Of a DNA stretch of 64,000 nt, positions 13,644 through 18,375 are shown piece after piece (positions within the stretch are counted from its first letter, which is position 1; each line of letters opens with the position of its first letter). The stretch comes from Nitrospinae bacterium CG11_big_fil_rev_8_21_14_0_20_45_15. GTDB taxonomy: Bacteria; Nitrospinota; Nitrospinia; Nitrospinales; VA-1. The stretch spans positions 62,001-126,000 of the forward strand of contig PCWG01000032.1 of assembly GCA_002787235.1 (NCBI GenBank), read 5' to 3'. The position numbers were made by a program, and so were the translations under genes. Below the pieces are notes generated by a model. It saw only the letters and a program-made list of their open reading frames with translations. It had not been told where the DNA came from and made no database searches.

Positions 13644-13776
13644 ACTTCATAAATATCTAAGAATTTGTGTAAGATAGGCTTTTGACTTGGCATAGAAAAT
13701 CAGTCGAGCTCTTTAGAAAAAATTAAGAAAGAGGAAGTGAATGGAAATATTAAGGCTGAAAAAGGAAAGAAAAAAG

Positions 13777-13796
13777 GATCAAGTGCGCTCTTGACT
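13777..13796 (+). repeat. REP-like palindrome copy
   Basis: An imperfect ATCAAG...CTTGAC palindrome preceded by AAAAGG. It is a diverged copy of the GGGGTCAAG-N6-CTTGAC element found twice more at the edges of this island. It abuts the truncated end of the left transposase fragment. Confidence 0.5.
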
Positions 13797-13800
13797 ATAA

Positions 13801-13869
13801 CCGATTCAAGCCACGATTCACCACATGATAAACTGCACCCGGAAACTCAATGCATAAAGGTTGGCTCAT
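13801..13869 (-). pseudogene. REP-associated (Y1) transposase, 5' fragment, left copy
   Basis: Reading leftward from the ATG at 13869, 23 codons encode 'MSQPLCIEFPGAVYHV', then 'VNRGLNR', and then leave the family sequence at 13801 and hit a stop within two codons. This is the conserved N-terminus of IS200-like REP-associated tyrosine transposases, normally over 200 residues. The catalytic His-X-His and Tyr are missing, so it cannot be active. An inverted partner copy lies at 16420. Confidence 0.75.
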
Positions 13870-13923
13870 GATCTTAGAATAAACATTATGCCACCTGTAG
13901 TCAAGAACGGACTTGACCCCTTT
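13801..13923 (-). repeat. Left arm of 123-bp inverted repeat (REP plus transposase 5' end)
   Basis: The reverse complement of 13801-13923 aligns without gaps to 16366-16488, with about 110 of 123 bases identical by my count. It contains the GTCAAG-N6-CTTGAC palindrome (13900-13917), a 30-bp leader and the first 23 codons of the transposase. The two arms face inward and enclose the IS3 remnant and three AT-rich genes. Confidence 0.8.
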
Positions 13924-13928
13924 ACTTT

Positions 13929-14039
13929 ATGACCCCTTTATTTTTTGAATATATCGAAGTGTTTTACAATAGGGAGCGTCGTCATTCGCACTTGGGCTAT
14001 CTCAGCCCGGCAGACTTTGAGAAGCAACATGCGGCCTAA
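13929..14039 (+). pseudogene. IS3-family transposase OrfB, C-terminal remnant
   Basis: The last 36 codons of an IS3/IS150-type transposase are present: 'YIEVFYNRERRHSHLGYLSP' is the typical C-terminal segment, ending 'ADFEKQHAA' and TAA at 14037-14039. The rest of the element, including the DDE catalytic core, is absent. The following bases (about 14045-14070) probably include the former right end of the insertion sequence. It begins immediately inside the left inverted-repeat arm. Confidence 0.8.
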
Positions 14040-14217
14040 CTTCGTGTCCACATATTCCGGGTAAGATCATTGCTTCAATTGCCCTAGATTTAATAAATCG
14101 ATTAATTATTGTGCCTACCAATGTGATAAGATAAGATTCATATCACAATTTTATCAAAAAAAAGAATATTAAAACTTAATATTTTCTAAGCAACTAAACT
14201 ATGGTAGCTAAATTAAA

Positions 14218-15027
14218 ATGTTTTTAAATATTGAGAATAAAGCAATAGAATCTTTTAATAGGCATTTTCTTGAAGGCGTACATTGTGAAATTGAATTCTC
14301 AGAGGTCACATCCGAGACTTTAATTAACAATGAAGAGGCGTTCAAGCGCGAATTTAATAGAATTGGATTTGCGAGTTTTAAAAAAATAAAGGAAAATTCA
14401 TTTGCCATTGAGGCCACAGGGGAAAGTGGCAACATTATTACATCGGTTAATCAACAAGGCAAATTTAAAGGATATTTGTGGGAAAGTGCAGACCCCAAAC
14501 GGAATGTTCAAATTAATCTGACTCAGCTTCTAACGTCCGATTATTCCTACAGTGGATTTGACAATTTTCATTCAAATTTAAATGCGGAATTGAAGATAAT
14601 TGAAGAACTGTTGGGAAAGCGCACAGTTAAAAAAATTGGCTTAAAAAAAGTCAATAAAATTCAGATTAGTAGTGTCCAATCTGTTGAAGATATAGGTATA
14701 TTATTTAATTCAAATTTGTTAGGCGGCGTAAGAAGCGGAATTGGAGAAATAGAAGATACTGTATTCACAGAAGAAAAACTCGTTTTTAAAAAAGAACAGA
14801 TTGTCGCCATTTTGACAATTAGTTTAAGTAAAATTAAAGAAAATGTGTTTGGAGTTAAGTTAGAATTAGATTGTATTTGCCTATCAGAATTTGACTCAAT
14901 TGATAAAGTGAATGAGACACTTTCTAAAATAAATCAATTTCAGTATAACTTATTCAACTGGTCGATCACTGAAGATTTTATTAAAATTTTGAGGTCATCT
15001 GATGACGAGTCTATTAACATTTCCTGA
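14218..15027 (+). CDS. TIGR04255-like protein, first gene of accessory cassette
   Basis: This protein has 269 residues and AT-rich codons unlike the neighbouring conserved genes. The early 'LEGVHCEIEFSEVTSETL' and the late 'LSKINQFQYNLFNWSITEDF' match the layout I know for the sporadically distributed TIGR04255 family: an N-terminal ferredoxin-like strand region, and a C-terminal helix with Phe and a Thr-Glu pair. The function of that family is unknown. No signal peptide or membrane segment is seen. The coding end overlaps the next gene by 26 bases, showing translational coupling. The binding site upstream of this ATG is weak. Confidence 0.6.
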   Translation: MFLNIENKAIESFNRHFLEGVHCEIEFSEVTSETLINNEEAFKREFNRIGFASFKKIKENSFAIEATGESGNIITSVNQQGKFKGYLWESADPKRNVQINLTQLLTSDYSYSGFDNFHSNLNAELKIIEELLGKRTVKKIGLKKVNKIQISSVQSVEDIGILFNSNLLGGVRSGIGEIEDTVFTEEKLVFKKEQIVAILTISLSKIKENVFGVKLELDCICLSEFDSIDKVNETLSKINQFQYNLFNWSITEDFIKILRSSDDESINIS

Positions 15028-15742
15028 GACTGAAGTTACCGAACCAATATCGAGTCTATCGACATTTTCCGAGACTGAATTTGACAAAATGTTTAATCCA
15101 TCTGAATTCAAGATTAATGTTGTCTTGAATAGGATTATTCCTAAAAAACTTAAATTGGGTGTCCAGAAAAAAGATGTCCACAAAAGAAAATACATAATTT
15201 TTAATGAAGCTATTAATGCTGATAATTTAGAAAGAGGCTTCAAAGAGGATGCTTCTCTATTGATCCCTTTTATATCGAAAAATAACTTTTACTCCCAAGA
15301 AACCAATTTCGTTTTACATACTAAAATAACAGATATTAATGAATCTGATAATCATACAGATCTGTGGAACGATGTTGATAAATTTAACAATACCTATTTA
15401 GCAAGCAAAGCCAGAATTAAGTCTTTTAAAGAAATAGGTGAAAATTGGGATTCAATGGGTAGTGCTGCGCCAAGTGAATTATCAATTCGAAATGCGCTGT
15501 TTGCGTTAGAGTTGTTGAAAGATAGTATGATTTTCCCAAATTCAATTAATCCATCCTCCGATGAAGGAATTGTTTTTGAGTTTAGTCTGAATAAAAATTA
15601 TTTTATCTTTGAGTTTTACAACGATGGGGACATAGTTTTTCTAAAAGACATAAAGGATGGTTCAGTTAGTGAACCAATGGCATTTGATATTAGTTCAAGT
15701 GAAATTAAAGAAAAAATCCGTGAAATTAACACAATCGATTAG
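15002..15742 (+). CDS. Hypothetical protein, second gene of accessory cassette
   Basis: This 246-residue protein begins at the ATG at 15002, with GAGG 7 bases upstream inside the preceding gene. The C-terminal half has 'ENWDSMGSAAPSELSIRNA', then 'DEGIVFEFSLNKNYFIFEFY', a module I have seen in proteins encoded beside TIGR04255 genes: a Trp-Asp-x-x-Gly motif, an Ala-containing helix, then a beta hairpin. The N-terminal half is not recognised. An unusual direct repeat of residues near the start (LTFPETEVTEPIS and STFSETEFD) suggests a small internal duplication. No enzymatic function can be assigned. Confidence 0.6.
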   Translation: MTSLLTFPETEVTEPISSLSTFSETEFDKMFNPSEFKINVVLNRIIPKKLKLGVQKKDVHKRKYIIFNEAINADNLERGFKEDASLLIPFISKNNFYSQETNFVLHTKITDINESDNHTDLWNDVDKFNNTYLASKARIKSFKEIGENWDSMGSAAPSELSIRNALFALELLKDSMIFPNSINPSSDEGIVFEFSLNKNYFIFEFYNDGDIVFLKDIKDGSVSEPMAFDISSSEIKEKIREINTID

Positions 15743-15749
15743 ACGTTTA

Positions 15750-16253
15750 ATGAAATTGTGTGACCCCCACTGCAAGAAAAAAAAAATTCCTCAACATTTG
15801 CATCAGAATGGCAGATTAGCTGATCCGTCATTTGATAGAAATGAGCGTATTTATATTAGGTTTCGGGAATTTGAAGATAATAAACCTACTTTATGCGATG
15901 GAAAAGTTAGTGCGGCAATATTTAAAACCGAGAAGCAGTCCTCGAATAGAGAAAAATATTCAAAATCACCCACAGATGTTTTGTTTGAAACTAATGGAGA
16001 TCACAAATTTTCATGGGGAATTGTCGAATTGATGTCCAGAGAAATTTGTGAAACCACTTTTCCGCATCCCAATACAGAAACTTCATATTCGTTTAGAGTT
16101 ATTCATGATCCGGTACAATGTATGTATCCGCATTCCGAGATAAGGATTTTCGAAAATGGAAATTTGGTTGAATCCATTAAGCCCAAATCTGTTAAAAATT
16201 TGATTAAATATAAATGGAGAGAAATAAGTTCTGTTTTGAAGAAACCAAGTTAA
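15750..16253 (+). CDS. Hypothetical His/Cys-containing protein, third gene of cassette
   Basis: This 167-residue protein begins at the ATG at 15750, only 7 bases after the preceding stop. An open frame reaches further upstream inside the second gene but is less likely to be used. The start has 'KLCDPHCKKKKIPQHLHQNG', with two Cys and several His that could bind metal. The middle has 'NREKYSKSPTDVLFETNG' and the later part 'FRVIHDPVQCMYPHSEIRI'. The conserved look of the His-Asp-Pro and Met-Tyr-Pro-His motifs suggests an enzyme or a specific binding protein. I do not recognise a named family. Confidence 0.55.
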   Translation: MKLCDPHCKKKKIPQHLHQNGRLADPSFDRNERIYIRFREFEDNKPTLCDGKVSAAIFKTEKQSSNREKYSKSPTDVLFETNGDHKFSWGIVELMSREICETTFPHPNTETSYSFRVIHDPVQCMYPHSEIRIFENGNLVESIKPKSVKNLIKYKWREISSVLKKPS

Positions 16254-16365
16254 TACTACTTTTCACATCATCCAATTTACCCCTCCTCCAAAAGCTGTAA
16301 TTATAAAAATCTATGCGAAGAATATGTTGAAATTGACAATTCAACACAAAAAAAAGGGGTCAAGA

Positions 16366-16488
16366 AAAGGGGTCAAGTCCGTTCTTGACGACAGTTTGTG
16401 TAATGTTTATTCTAAGATCATGAGCCGACCTTTACATATTGAGTTTCCGGGTGCAGTTTATCATGTAATGAATCGTGGGCTGAATCGG
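16366..16488 (+). repeat. Right arm of 123-bp inverted repeat (REP plus transposase 5' end)
   Basis: This is the partner of 13801-13923 in opposite orientation. The palindrome core GTCAAG-N6-CTTGAC is at 16372-16389, preceded by an additional partial AAAAGGGGTCAAG at about 16353-16364. The arm covers the leader and the first 23 codons of the transposase fragment. Confidence 0.8.
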
Positions 16489-16566
16489 AACTCTATCTTT
16501 CTCGAAAATAAAAATTATGAGCTGTTCGGGGAAACCCTTGAGCAGGGTTGCCGCTTTTTTGAGTAG
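16420..16566 (+). pseudogene. REP-associated (Y1) transposase, 5' fragment, right copy
   Basis: From the ATG at 16420, family-like sequence runs for about 36 codons (MSRPLHIEFPGAVYHV, then 'MNRGLNRNSIFLENKNYELF'). It then changes to an unrelated short tail ending at TAG 16564-16566. The catalytic region is missing. The break near 16527 probably marks the junction with the DNA downstream of mnmE. Confidence 0.75.
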
Positions 16567-16614: not shown

Positions 16615-18021
16615 TTATTTTCCGATACAGAATTCATTGAAGATTTGATCGAGCAGGTCTTCATCGAAATTCTTGCCGACGATCCCGCCCAAATGATCCA
16701 TGGCCATTTGCACATCCACGGCCACAAATTCTTCTGACAACTGATTTTCCACCGACTCCCGGGCGCGTTCAAGGGCTTCCAGTGTTTGCGCTAAAGCGGA
16801 ACGATGCCGCTCGCGGCTGATGACGATGGATTCGCTGGCGTGTTCTCCCTTCGCCACTTTTTCGTAAATCGCGTCTTTCAAAGCTTCCAGTCCTTCGAGA
16901 GATTTGGCGGAGATGGATAGCAGGGGGGTCCCGGCAAGTCGTTGCTTCAAATCACTGTGATCGAGTTTTGCGGGCAGATCGGTTTTGTTCAATACTGCGA
17001 TGCGTACTTTATTTTCGACGACGCAAAGCAGGAGTCGGTCGCTTTCATCCAGAGGTCGGGACTGGTCGAACAGGACCACAGCGAGATCGGCTTCCTTCAG
17101 TGCGTTGCGGGCGCGTTCGATGCCGATTTCTTCGATGGCTTCGGGATTGTCGCGCAGGCCGGCGGAGTCGATCAGGTTGATGTGAATGTCGCGCAGGCGG
17201 ATGCTTTCTTCCAACAGGTCGCGTGTGGTGCCGGAGTGCGGAGTAACGATGGCGCGTTCTTCATCGAGAAGCGCGTTCATGAGACTGGATTTTCCAACAT
17301 TGGGTTTGCCTATGAGCAGGACGCGCGCGCCTTCACGAAAAATTTTCCCCTGCCGATAGGTGCCAAGCAGTTGGGTGATGCTGGATTGGATGGCCCCGAT
17401 CTTGCGAAGCAACTCGGCCTGCTGAACAAATTTCAAATCATCTTCGGGGAAATCAATCGCGGCTGATAATTGGGACAGGACGGCGAGCACATCGTCGTAC
17501 AAATCGGAAAGTTTTTTGGAGAGATTGCCTTTCAATTGCGCGGTCGCCGTCTTCAGGGCCTGATCGGATGCGGAATGTATGACGTCGATGACGGCTTCGG
17601 CCTGGGAAAGATCGATGCGACCGTTCACAAAGGCGCGCCGGGTAAATTCTCCGGGTTCCGCCATTCGCGCTCCTGCTTCGAGAGTTCTTTGCAGGACTTT
17701 CAGGGAAACGTATTGTCCGCCATGCACACAAATTTCGACGACATCTTCGGCGGTGTAACTTTTGGGAGCTTTGAACCAGGTGAGGATGGCCTCGTCGATG
17801 CAAGTGCCTTCGGCAGAACGGAGTTCGCCAAAATAGGCCTTTTGGGGCACCATCTTTTCACTGAGGGGTTTTCCGTTTGCCTTGACGAACAGGGCGCGGG
17901 CGATGGTCACTGCGTCGGGTCCGCTGAGCCGTATGACACTGAGTCCGCCTTCACCTTTTGGGGTGGCGATTGCGCTGATGGTATCGCCCGGCGAGCCGCC
18001 GGTGGCAATAGAACTTTCCAA
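16615..18021 (-). CDS. mnmE: tRNA modification GTPase MnmE
   Basis: This 468-residue protein works with MnmG in the cytoplasm to place the 5-carboxymethylaminomethyl group on wobble uridines of certain tRNAs. The N-terminal tetrahydrofolate-binding domain starts with 'DTISAIATPKGEGGLSVIRL'. The G domain near residues 215-380 has P-loop 'GKPNVGKS', 'SGTTRD', 'DSAGLRD' and 'NKTD'. The protein ends with the family-specific 'CIGK', whose Cys is characteristic. Length is normal for the family. It lies downstream of yidC in the usual rpmH-rnpA-yidD-yidC-mnmE order, after a 354-bp spacer. Confidence 0.97.
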   Translation of the reverse strand: MESSIATGGSPGDTISAIATPKGEGGLSVIRLSGPDAVTIARALFVKANGKPLSEKMVPQKAYFGELRSAEGTCIDEAILTWFKAPKSYTAEDVVEICVHGGQYVSLKVLQRTLEAGARMAEPGEFTRRAFVNGRIDLSQAEAVIDVIHSASDQALKTATAQLKGNLSKKLSDLYDDVLAVLSQLSAAIDFPEDDLKFVQQAELLRKIGAIQSSITQLLGTYRQGKIFREGARVLLIGKPNVGKSSLMNALLDEERAIVTPHSGTTRDLLEESIRLRDIHINLIDSAGLRDNPEAIEEIGIERARNALKEADLAVVLFDQSRPLDESDRLLLCVVENKVRIAVLNKTDLPAKLDHSDLKQRLAGTPLLSISAKSLEGLEALKDAIYEKVAKGEHASESIVISRERHRSALAQTLEALERARESVENQLSEEFVAVDVQMAMDHLGGIVGKNFDEDLLDQIFNEFCIGK

Positions 18022-18375
18022 AGACTGTTCCTTTAAAAATCAACACGCTTCAAATGGACCCCGCTCCGGCGGGCGTGTGCAAAAAGAAAAACCACCCAAG
18101 CAGTCATCCTGAACGGAAGTGAAGGATCTCTGGGGTGCAAACAATATACAGCAAATTTGCTCCCGCCACGCGGGAGCCGCCGGACAGGCTACGCCTGTTG
18201 GACATAGAAAGATTCGCGATCGCACAAAATATGCACTGGGTTAATTAATAACGTACAGTCTAGCGAGCGACTTGCCGGACCCGCCGGAGCGGGTCGACAC
18301 ATTCCATTACGAAATATTGTATTGGACAGCTTTATTATTATGCACAAATTACCAGCGGAGGTACTCCGCACTCCG
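18022..18375. other. Intergenic spacer with hairpins and a dispersed repeat
   Basis: There is no credible gene between yidC and mnmE. The spacer holds a GTCATCCTGA...GAAGGATCT dispersed-type repeat (18103-18132), a perfect 8-bp stem GCTCCCGC-CAC-GCGGGAGC (18159-18177), and a perfect palindrome GACCCGCCGGAGCGGGTC (18278-18295). The hairpins lack long T-tracts, so they are probably not strong terminators. Confidence 0.6.
18103..18132 (+). repeat. Dispersed GTCATCCTGA...GAAGGATCT repeat
   Basis: The sequence matches a short repeat motif seen scattered in intergenic regions of many bacterial genomes. Only one copy is visible in this window, so its status as a repeat rests on general knowledge. 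Confidence 0.4.

Follow-up and report, generated by a model that had tools for sequence, protein, structure and literature searches.

Among described mobile elements, the closest counterparts of the locus reported here are the TIRtrons, or TIRYT elements (Di Nocera, 2013; PMC3733652), and the REPINs and BIMEs (PMC3116915). In the available passages of the former paper, the gene for a Y1 HUH transposase with a DnaA-like C-terminal domain lies between two inverted repeats, which share the sequence GGGGWSAS and are also found alone, as dimers or in clusters. Excerpts from PMC6006769 describe subclass 2.1, or group 1, of the REP-associated tyrosine transposases (RAYTs), which partly carry a Bac_DnaA_C domain; this group is probably identical to TIRYT. 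REPINs and BIMEs are doublets of repetitive extragenic palindromes (REPs) mobilised by a RAYT (PMC3116915, in part), and the Escherichia coli enzyme TnpAREP cleaves and rejoins single-stranded REP substrates in vitro (PMC8266576, in part). According to the same excerpts, the functions of these Y1 proteins are still largely unknown (PMC6006769) and the spread of REP-type repeats is still to be elucidated (PMC8266576). We analysed a 64,000-nucleotide stretch of the genome of Nitrospinae bacterium CG11_big_fil_rev_8_21_14_0_20_45_15 (hereafter the window), in which the 3′ ends of a TrpD-like gene and mnmE flank a three-gene cassette that is enclosed by two inverted arms derived from an element of this kind.

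In the family of the host (46 genomes, including its own), the terminal repeats of this element have a preferred polarity at the sampled sites, form inward-facing pairs around unrelated genes, separate homologous flanks on one side from different cargo on the other, and in four species stand beside one and the same cargo gene. On balance, we lean towards reading the arms as decayed members of the TIRYT family and the layout as borders at which accessory cargo was exchanged, of which the window would retain a scar.

We found no description of gene cargo bounded by RAYT or TIRYT ends in the available parts of the open-licence literature, which does not establish its absence from print, and none in the passages available from PMC3116915, PMC2817692, PMC3733652, PMC8266576, PMC6006769 and PMC3390384. 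A literature search with the letters of the repeat gave unrelated titles only, among the matches listed, and in excerpts from the one paper in which "cargo" occurs together with "REP-associated tyrosine transposase" the word means prophages and islands, not REP-bounded units.

Remnants of a TIRYT element at both borders

A repeat scan of the window identified an inverted repeat (13801-13950 and 16339-16488) of 150 nucleotides with 84% complementarity and 2388 nucleotides between its arms, the 123-nucleotide core of which has 89% identity (E 1.8e-41 in the comparison with the host's own genome), in agreement with the roughly 110 of 123 identical positions that had been counted from the sequence. 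Each arm contains the predicted palindrome, which has no mismatch to the pattern AAAGGGGTCAAG-N7-TTGAC, and more copies of AGGGGTCA lie directly inside each arm (Table 1). The right terminal repeat in its 24-base form folds into a 6-bp hairpin, with z-scores of -2.55 and -3.00 on the two strands. No intact transposase gene is present at the locus. The two remaining pieces align to the first 23 and the first 48 residues of the cognate protein in a related genome (G022), and the right piece has 67% identity to residues 1-48 of an intact relative. The original prediction had both arms breaking off after codon 23, which applies to the left arm and not to the right. It had also regarded both as truncated units; the right one is a 5′ fragment, whereas the left one is a 152-bp doublet with a palindrome at both ends, and the gap between its two repeats (105 bases) falls within a cluster of doublet gaps at 104-120.

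The arm and its surroundings match 18 of the 46 family genomes, and intact cognate elements of about 1.03-1.05 kb occur in five family genomes (G005, G011, G022, G023 and G043). Both arms belong, as proposed, to a single Y1 tyrosine-transposase family. The intact elements encode a protein of 325-329 amino acids between two inverted AAAGGGGTCAAG-N7-TTGAC repeats with their AAAGGGG ends outward. The G022 protein matches Y1_Tnp (PF01797, E 2.2e-14) and Bac_DnaA_C (PF08299, E 2.6e-11); the DnaA-like domain is absent from the window, where only the 5′ end of the gene remains. In the element repeats, GGGGTCAA agrees with the published GGGGWSAS at seven of eight positions. Judged by these features, the element is a TIRYT or TIRtron, that is, a group-1 RAYT, which is a better name than REP-RAYT. 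Of 89 repeats examined in named genomes, 30 lie within 300 bp of a transposase match, without exception one on the GTAG side of the repeat, opposite to the AAAGG end; this links the repeat to that enzyme.

The locus departs from both described systems. Unlike TIRtrons, the window holds remnants only; the words cargo, passenger, gene cassette and defense are absent from PMC3733652, and its available passages mention neither a polarity towards accessory genes nor exchange between species. Short palindromic repeats and inverted pairs are shared with REPINs and BIMEs, as outlined in passages of PMC3116915, and the left unit is such a doublet; copy number here is low, with kilobase cargo instead of a short spacer, and the terms cargo and passenger do not appear in PMC3116915. 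The host genome (3.37 Mb in 45 contigs, with the window on contig C21) contains five exact copies of the terminal repeat, instead of the high number expected of a REP or REPIN.

Polarity of the terminal repeats

For lone repeats, we compiled 50 stretches of family genomes with a repeat, chosen by eye for palindromic matches from a pattern list that allowed two mismatches; many matches in this list are chance, and a control pattern gives similar numbers in several genomes. The polarity count omits L123, L142 and L144 (dense arrays or intact elements), and the window, L093 and L094 stand outside the set. Open reading frames (ORFs) for this count and for the control gaps were called with a simple longest-ORF script (at least 100 amino acids, within 700 bp). 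Several loci have more than one repeat, so that counts over all repeats are not independent and are given beside counts of one per locus. Twelve loci were left out of the corresponding set from outside the family as Nitrospinota or duplicates of family genomes.

Among family repeats without a nearby transposase, the AAAGG side is lower in guanine-plus-cytosine (GC) content than the GTAG side at 35 of 44 untied sites within 300 bp, and at 25 of 30 at a distance of 1.3-2 kb. On the GTAG side, the ORF closest to the repeat points its 3′ end at it in 35 cases versus 9 (p 1.1e-4; one per locus, 31 versus 9), compared with 22 versus 19 on the AAAGG side. ORFs are lower in GC on the AAAGG side in 31 of 36 comparisons (one per locus, 28 of 33; p 6.6e-5). 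A flanking ORF below 40% GC was found at 23 of 33 repeat sites, compared with 20 of 103 control gaps in loci fetched for other reasons. In this family the repeats tend to lie with a fixed polarity, a backbone gene ending on the GTAG side and AT-rich, variable and partly anti-phage cargo following on the AAAGG side.

Additional copies of AGGGGTCA were counted as well. Within 200 bp of 58 family repeats, we counted 18 copies in the same direction and none in the opposite direction on the AAAGG side, and none and two, respectively, on the GTAG side, both of the latter being the window's own doublet. The corresponding numbers for 133 repeats of other loci are 30 and 5 (AAAGG side) versus 7 and 32 (GTAG side). 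Repeated events may have left the copies on the cargo side.

The polarity counts also bear on a passive explanation, in which repeats and small doublets insert preferentially just downstream of genes, GTAG side towards the gene. Accessory islands would begin at the same places, so that the repeats come to lie at island borders while playing no part in exchange. The 35 versus 9 bias is what this explanation would predict, REPs are reported to lie mainly downstream of coding regions (PMC3733652, in part), gene order in the family is fluid anyway and the arms are old. It leaves unexplained the AT-rich cargo at most sampled lone repeats (23 of 33 against 20 of 103), the inward pairs that closely enclose single genes, and a shared flank that reaches the repeat beside different cargo in G041 and G042 (see below). 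We consider this explanation possible, though we would not expect it to be the right one.

Two variants of the lone repeat were seen in this survey. Repeats in G018, G023 and G042 (L109, L115, L118, L130 and L131) share 40-120 bp beside the repeat on the GTAG side, and possibly form, to judge by this shared sequence, a separate subfamily without transposase. In G003, a high-GC species, ladders of AGGGGTCA-like copies lie beside a variant repeat (L136 and L137).

Proposed cargo exchange and competing explanations

Inward-facing AAAGGGG pairs around unrelated, non-transposase cargo occur at seven places, five of which remain in a stricter scan. Besides the window (2.4 kb), they enclose a 274-amino-acid ORF (G008, contig C26), an AbiJ/TIR-like gene (G018, C42), a Schlafen helicase (G041, C13) and ORFs of 238 (G045, C119) and 123 amino acids (G005, C1), with a further pair in G039 (C67). 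Other cargo between the same kind of ends, which had been suggested as a check on the locus, is present in other genomes. Outside the family, the stricter scan gave four inward pairs without transposase, three of which have a GC value (0.41-0.55), and 14 outward ones.

Among 58 repeats flanked by over 150 bp on each side, comparison revealed homologous GTAG flanks with no detectable similarity on the AAAGG side in G041/G042, G039/G045, G008/G005, G018/G025 and G018/G022/G023, and at a further site in G026/G039, where G041 also matches over 140 bp. Pairs that have transposase sequence as their common flank (L111, L142, L144 and the window) were not counted as sites. In the best case, the sequences of G041 and G042 match for about 3 kb (86-91%) as far as the repeat, which is included, and again for 60 bp (92%) of the far flank, and differ in cargo, a Schlafen-group helicase in G041 and an MmeI-type enzyme in G042; G042 has no second repeat at this site. 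In G008 and G005, both outer flanks are shared and collinear (75-77% nearest the site) around different content. At the nifU site, 3 kb are shared at 90% between G039 and G045 up to the first repeat, followed in each by unrelated cargo and a second repeat. Conversely, one 237-amino-acid cargo gene is found in 4 of the 46 genomes, each time beside a repeat and in at least two different places.

Defence functions were sought with Pfam and PADLOC in 20 ORF pairs, chosen where both sides of the repeat had ORFs, with longer ones favoured, from among the sites. Six of the 20 AAAGG-side ORFs match specific defence models: a Type II restriction enzyme (8e-26), a TIR effector with an AbiJ domain, NDT_II-A (1.4e-80; by its name a retron-type effector), a DRT-associated RTasPolA (1.2e-133), a PDC-S41 Schlafen protein (6e-274) and a type IIG enzyme (E 0). 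By our judgement, which also decided which PADLOC hits were clear, no GTAG-side ORF has a specific match, three ABC ATPases and one response regulator being generic. Pfam assigned a family to 18 of the 20 ORFs on the GTAG side and to 11 of the 20 on the AAAGG side. Defence islands and hotspots likewise hold AT-rich accessory genes at fixed sites, including restriction, retron/DRT-type, Schlafen and Abi-type systems; here, in contrast, the borders are formed by copies of a single terminal repeat that has a preferred polarity.

Taken together, these observations suggest that the repeats, between whose outer AAAGGGG ends the cargo lies, would be the breakpoints of its exchange. Exchange could proceed through a transposase acting in trans, which would cleave and join single-stranded DNA at the terminal hairpin, or through recombination between repeat copies. 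A bolder form of this proposal is that TIRYT terminal repeats are docking sites of cassette exchange. A HUH Y1 enzyme would act there on folded repeats, cutting and rejoining them, and thereby exchange the accessory and anti-phage genes that follow backbone genes, as an integron would but without an integrase, the window being one loaded and now immobile site; we put this forward tentatively and think it more likely not to hold. A border of preferred polarity between backbone and variable, partly anti-phage genes would give one Y1 family a concrete, testable role, and its signature offers a way to find new accessory systems, such as the three-gene TIGR04255 operon of the window.

Several observations weigh against exchange at these borders. 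The polarity does not appear outside the family (3′ end 28 versus 25; lower GC at 25 of 42), though the same repeat and transposase occur there, which makes it a family-level phenomenon and not something inherent in the repeat. At some sites within the family, GC is ordinary on either side of the repeat (e.g., L096, L105, L115 and L119-L121). With a mechanical cut-off of E below 1e-5, PADLOC matches number 7 of 20 on the AAAGG side versus 4 of 20 on the GTAG side, and none of the three window genes has a significant PADLOC match (A none; values for B and C in Table 1). At the nifU site, the flanks of G039 and G045 beyond the second repeat are not shared. Five pairs of repeats are similar on the AAAGG side only, each starting at least 800 bp from the repeat, and one pair shares the AAAGG side next to the repeat (the Lar-like unit described below). 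Most of the 14 nifU loci listed differ in the gene that follows nifU, whether a repeat is present or not. Since gene order in the family is this fluid, the argument rests on polarity, not on breaks alone. No excision, circle or clean empty site was seen at the loci compared.

Same-direction tandem repeats with small genes between them occur in G041 (C61) and G039 (C67), and these two arrays have in common a 438-bp unit with 87% identity and different neighbours, the small ORF of which we take to be Lar-like. Such arrays might point to an integron-like platform, on which another, unrecognised recombinase uses the repeat as an attC-like folded site. Mobile integron gene cassettes resemble the present loci in their foldable repeat sites, small-gene arrays and variable content at one chromosomal place, and differ in that the associated enzyme here is a HUH transposase; no integrase or attC site was identified, and no search was aimed at either. 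Given the position of that transposase on the GTAG side of all 30 repeats that have one nearby, we rate a platform of this kind as very improbable.

Transposase-less doublets also occur in named genomes outside the family, with gaps of 19-213 bases. Six of them, from several groups (L184, L191, L197, L217, L218 and L224), measure 152-168 bp in total, and their interiors are for the most part unrelated; the one at L224 also holds a transposase start. Other doublets are shorter or longer. A constant doublet length was considered and dropped in view of the range of gaps outside the family.

Mobility of the locus and its genes

The original prediction of a composite mobile unit would have two element copies carry the cargo into the gap between the TrpD-like gene and mnmE as one unit. 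The inverted arms around AT-rich cargo are what such a transposon would leave, and in G005, too, cargo lies between element fragments; two copies of one element around cargo are present here, and an intact transposase in a flanking copy is not. The G005 pieces are in direct, not inverted, orientation, and five of the seven inward pairs lack a transposase piece at E 1e-3. In the host genome we found no second copy of the arm pair, and neither there nor in the 45 relatives a second copy of gene A, which of the three genes was the one used to search the relatives. Neither a target duplication nor a clean empty site was found at the TrpD-like/mnmE gap. Movement of this arm pair and its cargo as one unit is not shown by these data, and we consider a true composite transposon unlikely.

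The relatives compared at this gap have other arrangements. In G001, of the same genus, the next gene after the TrpD-like one consists, judging from its sequence, of tetratricopeptide-like repeats, and mnmE is followed by the beginning of a gene like it, at the edge of a contig; this is consistent with a single gene of this type at the place corresponding to the cassette. In G002, the TrpD-like gene and mnmE are far apart. No clean, precise empty site was found at the nifU and M90 sites either; among 14 M90-peptidase loci compared, the repeat pair around the AbiJ-like gene is in G018 only.

A full-length enzyme elsewhere in the host genome, which had been expected to supply activity, was not found: the single Y1 gene detected, on contig C32, lacks these ends, and no intact cognate enzyme turned up. 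The locus is therefore probably an immobile scar. A third copy of the arm is cut short by the end of contig C39, so that an intact transposase gene could be hidden in an assembly gap. The arms differ from each other (89% identity) about as much as each differs from the C39 copy (91% and 90.5%), which indicates that they are old, and they could be separate insertions. Independent insertion had been named as an alternative; the recurring layout and polarity across the family argue against mere chance.

Three contigs of the host genome have the repeat turned towards AT-rich DNA, namely C21 (both arms), C9 and C39. At the start of C39, a 38-bp tandem duplication of the terminal repeat (L026:60-133) lies at the contig end, and the roughly 0.9 kb of AT-rich DNA after it contains a 114-amino-acid ORF. 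On C9, a single AT-rich gene (L143:2349-3476; 376 amino acids, SEC-C motif) lies beside a class II tRNA synthetase gene, with a repeat at one border only.

Three AT-rich genes lie between the arms of the window, as predicted (Table 1). GC in 500-base windows is 0.29-0.34 between 14000 and 16250 and 0.47-0.57 fully outside.

Table 1. Positions in the window of the border elements and the genes they enclose.
Feature	Position	Strand	Basis
Left unit, doublet with a terminal repeat at each end and 23 Y1 transposase codons between	13772..13923	-	Repeat scan, pattern match, alignment
Outer, diverged terminal repeat of left unit	13772..13797	+	26 nt, 85% complementary to 13898-13923; 2 mismatches over 13772-13795
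Transposase codons 1-23 in left unit	13869..13801	-
Cargo-proximal terminal repeat of left unit, AAAGGGG end towards cargo	13900..13923	-	0 mismatches
Additional partial copy of AAAGGGGTCA end, cargo side	13930..13939	-	Repeat scan and copy count
Possible C-terminal remnant and right end of an IS3-family element	13941..14069	+	Motif and end in the sequence; 32-amino-acid piece without Pfam match
Gene A, 269 amino acids, TIGR04255 family	14218..15027	+	NCBIfam E 7.2e-18, over cut-off
Gene B, 246 amino acids, overlapping A, without Pfam or NCBIfam family	15002..15742	+	PADLOC PDC-M32A E 0.0019 only
Gene C, 167 amino acids, without Pfam or NCBIfam family	15750..16253	+	PADLOC PtuB E 0.027 only
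Additional partial copy of AAAGGGGTCAAG end, cargo side	16353..16364	+	Sequence and copy count
Right terminal repeat, AAAGGGG end towards cargo	16366..16389	+	0 mismatches; 24-base form is a 6-bp hairpin
Right unit, first 48 Y1 transposase codons, then stop	16420..16566	+	Alignment

The IS3 remnant that had been placed between the arms is a possible one, the claim being based on a motif in the sequence. The match of gene B to the candidate PDC-M32A is only a lead. No relatives of gene A were found in a collection of genome contigs, none of genes A, B and C in plasmids, and none of gene B in viral contigs. Of 77 genomes from the phylum, 11 contain TIGR04255 at E 0.001, and in 10 of these the match is over the cut-off. 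At two loci (L273 and L278), a TIGR04255 gene is followed by two ORFs without detectable similarity to B or C, and no terminal repeat lies within the stretch examined, which indicates that this operon type is not tied to the repeats. Three-gene accessory operons in which a TIGR04255 gene has variable partners perhaps recur.

Upstream of mnmE, the window contains another dispersed intergenic repeat (17994-18209). Copies of it at 78% stand close to the Y1 gene of contig C32 (L025:902-1081), and there are shorter matches behind mnmE in G001.

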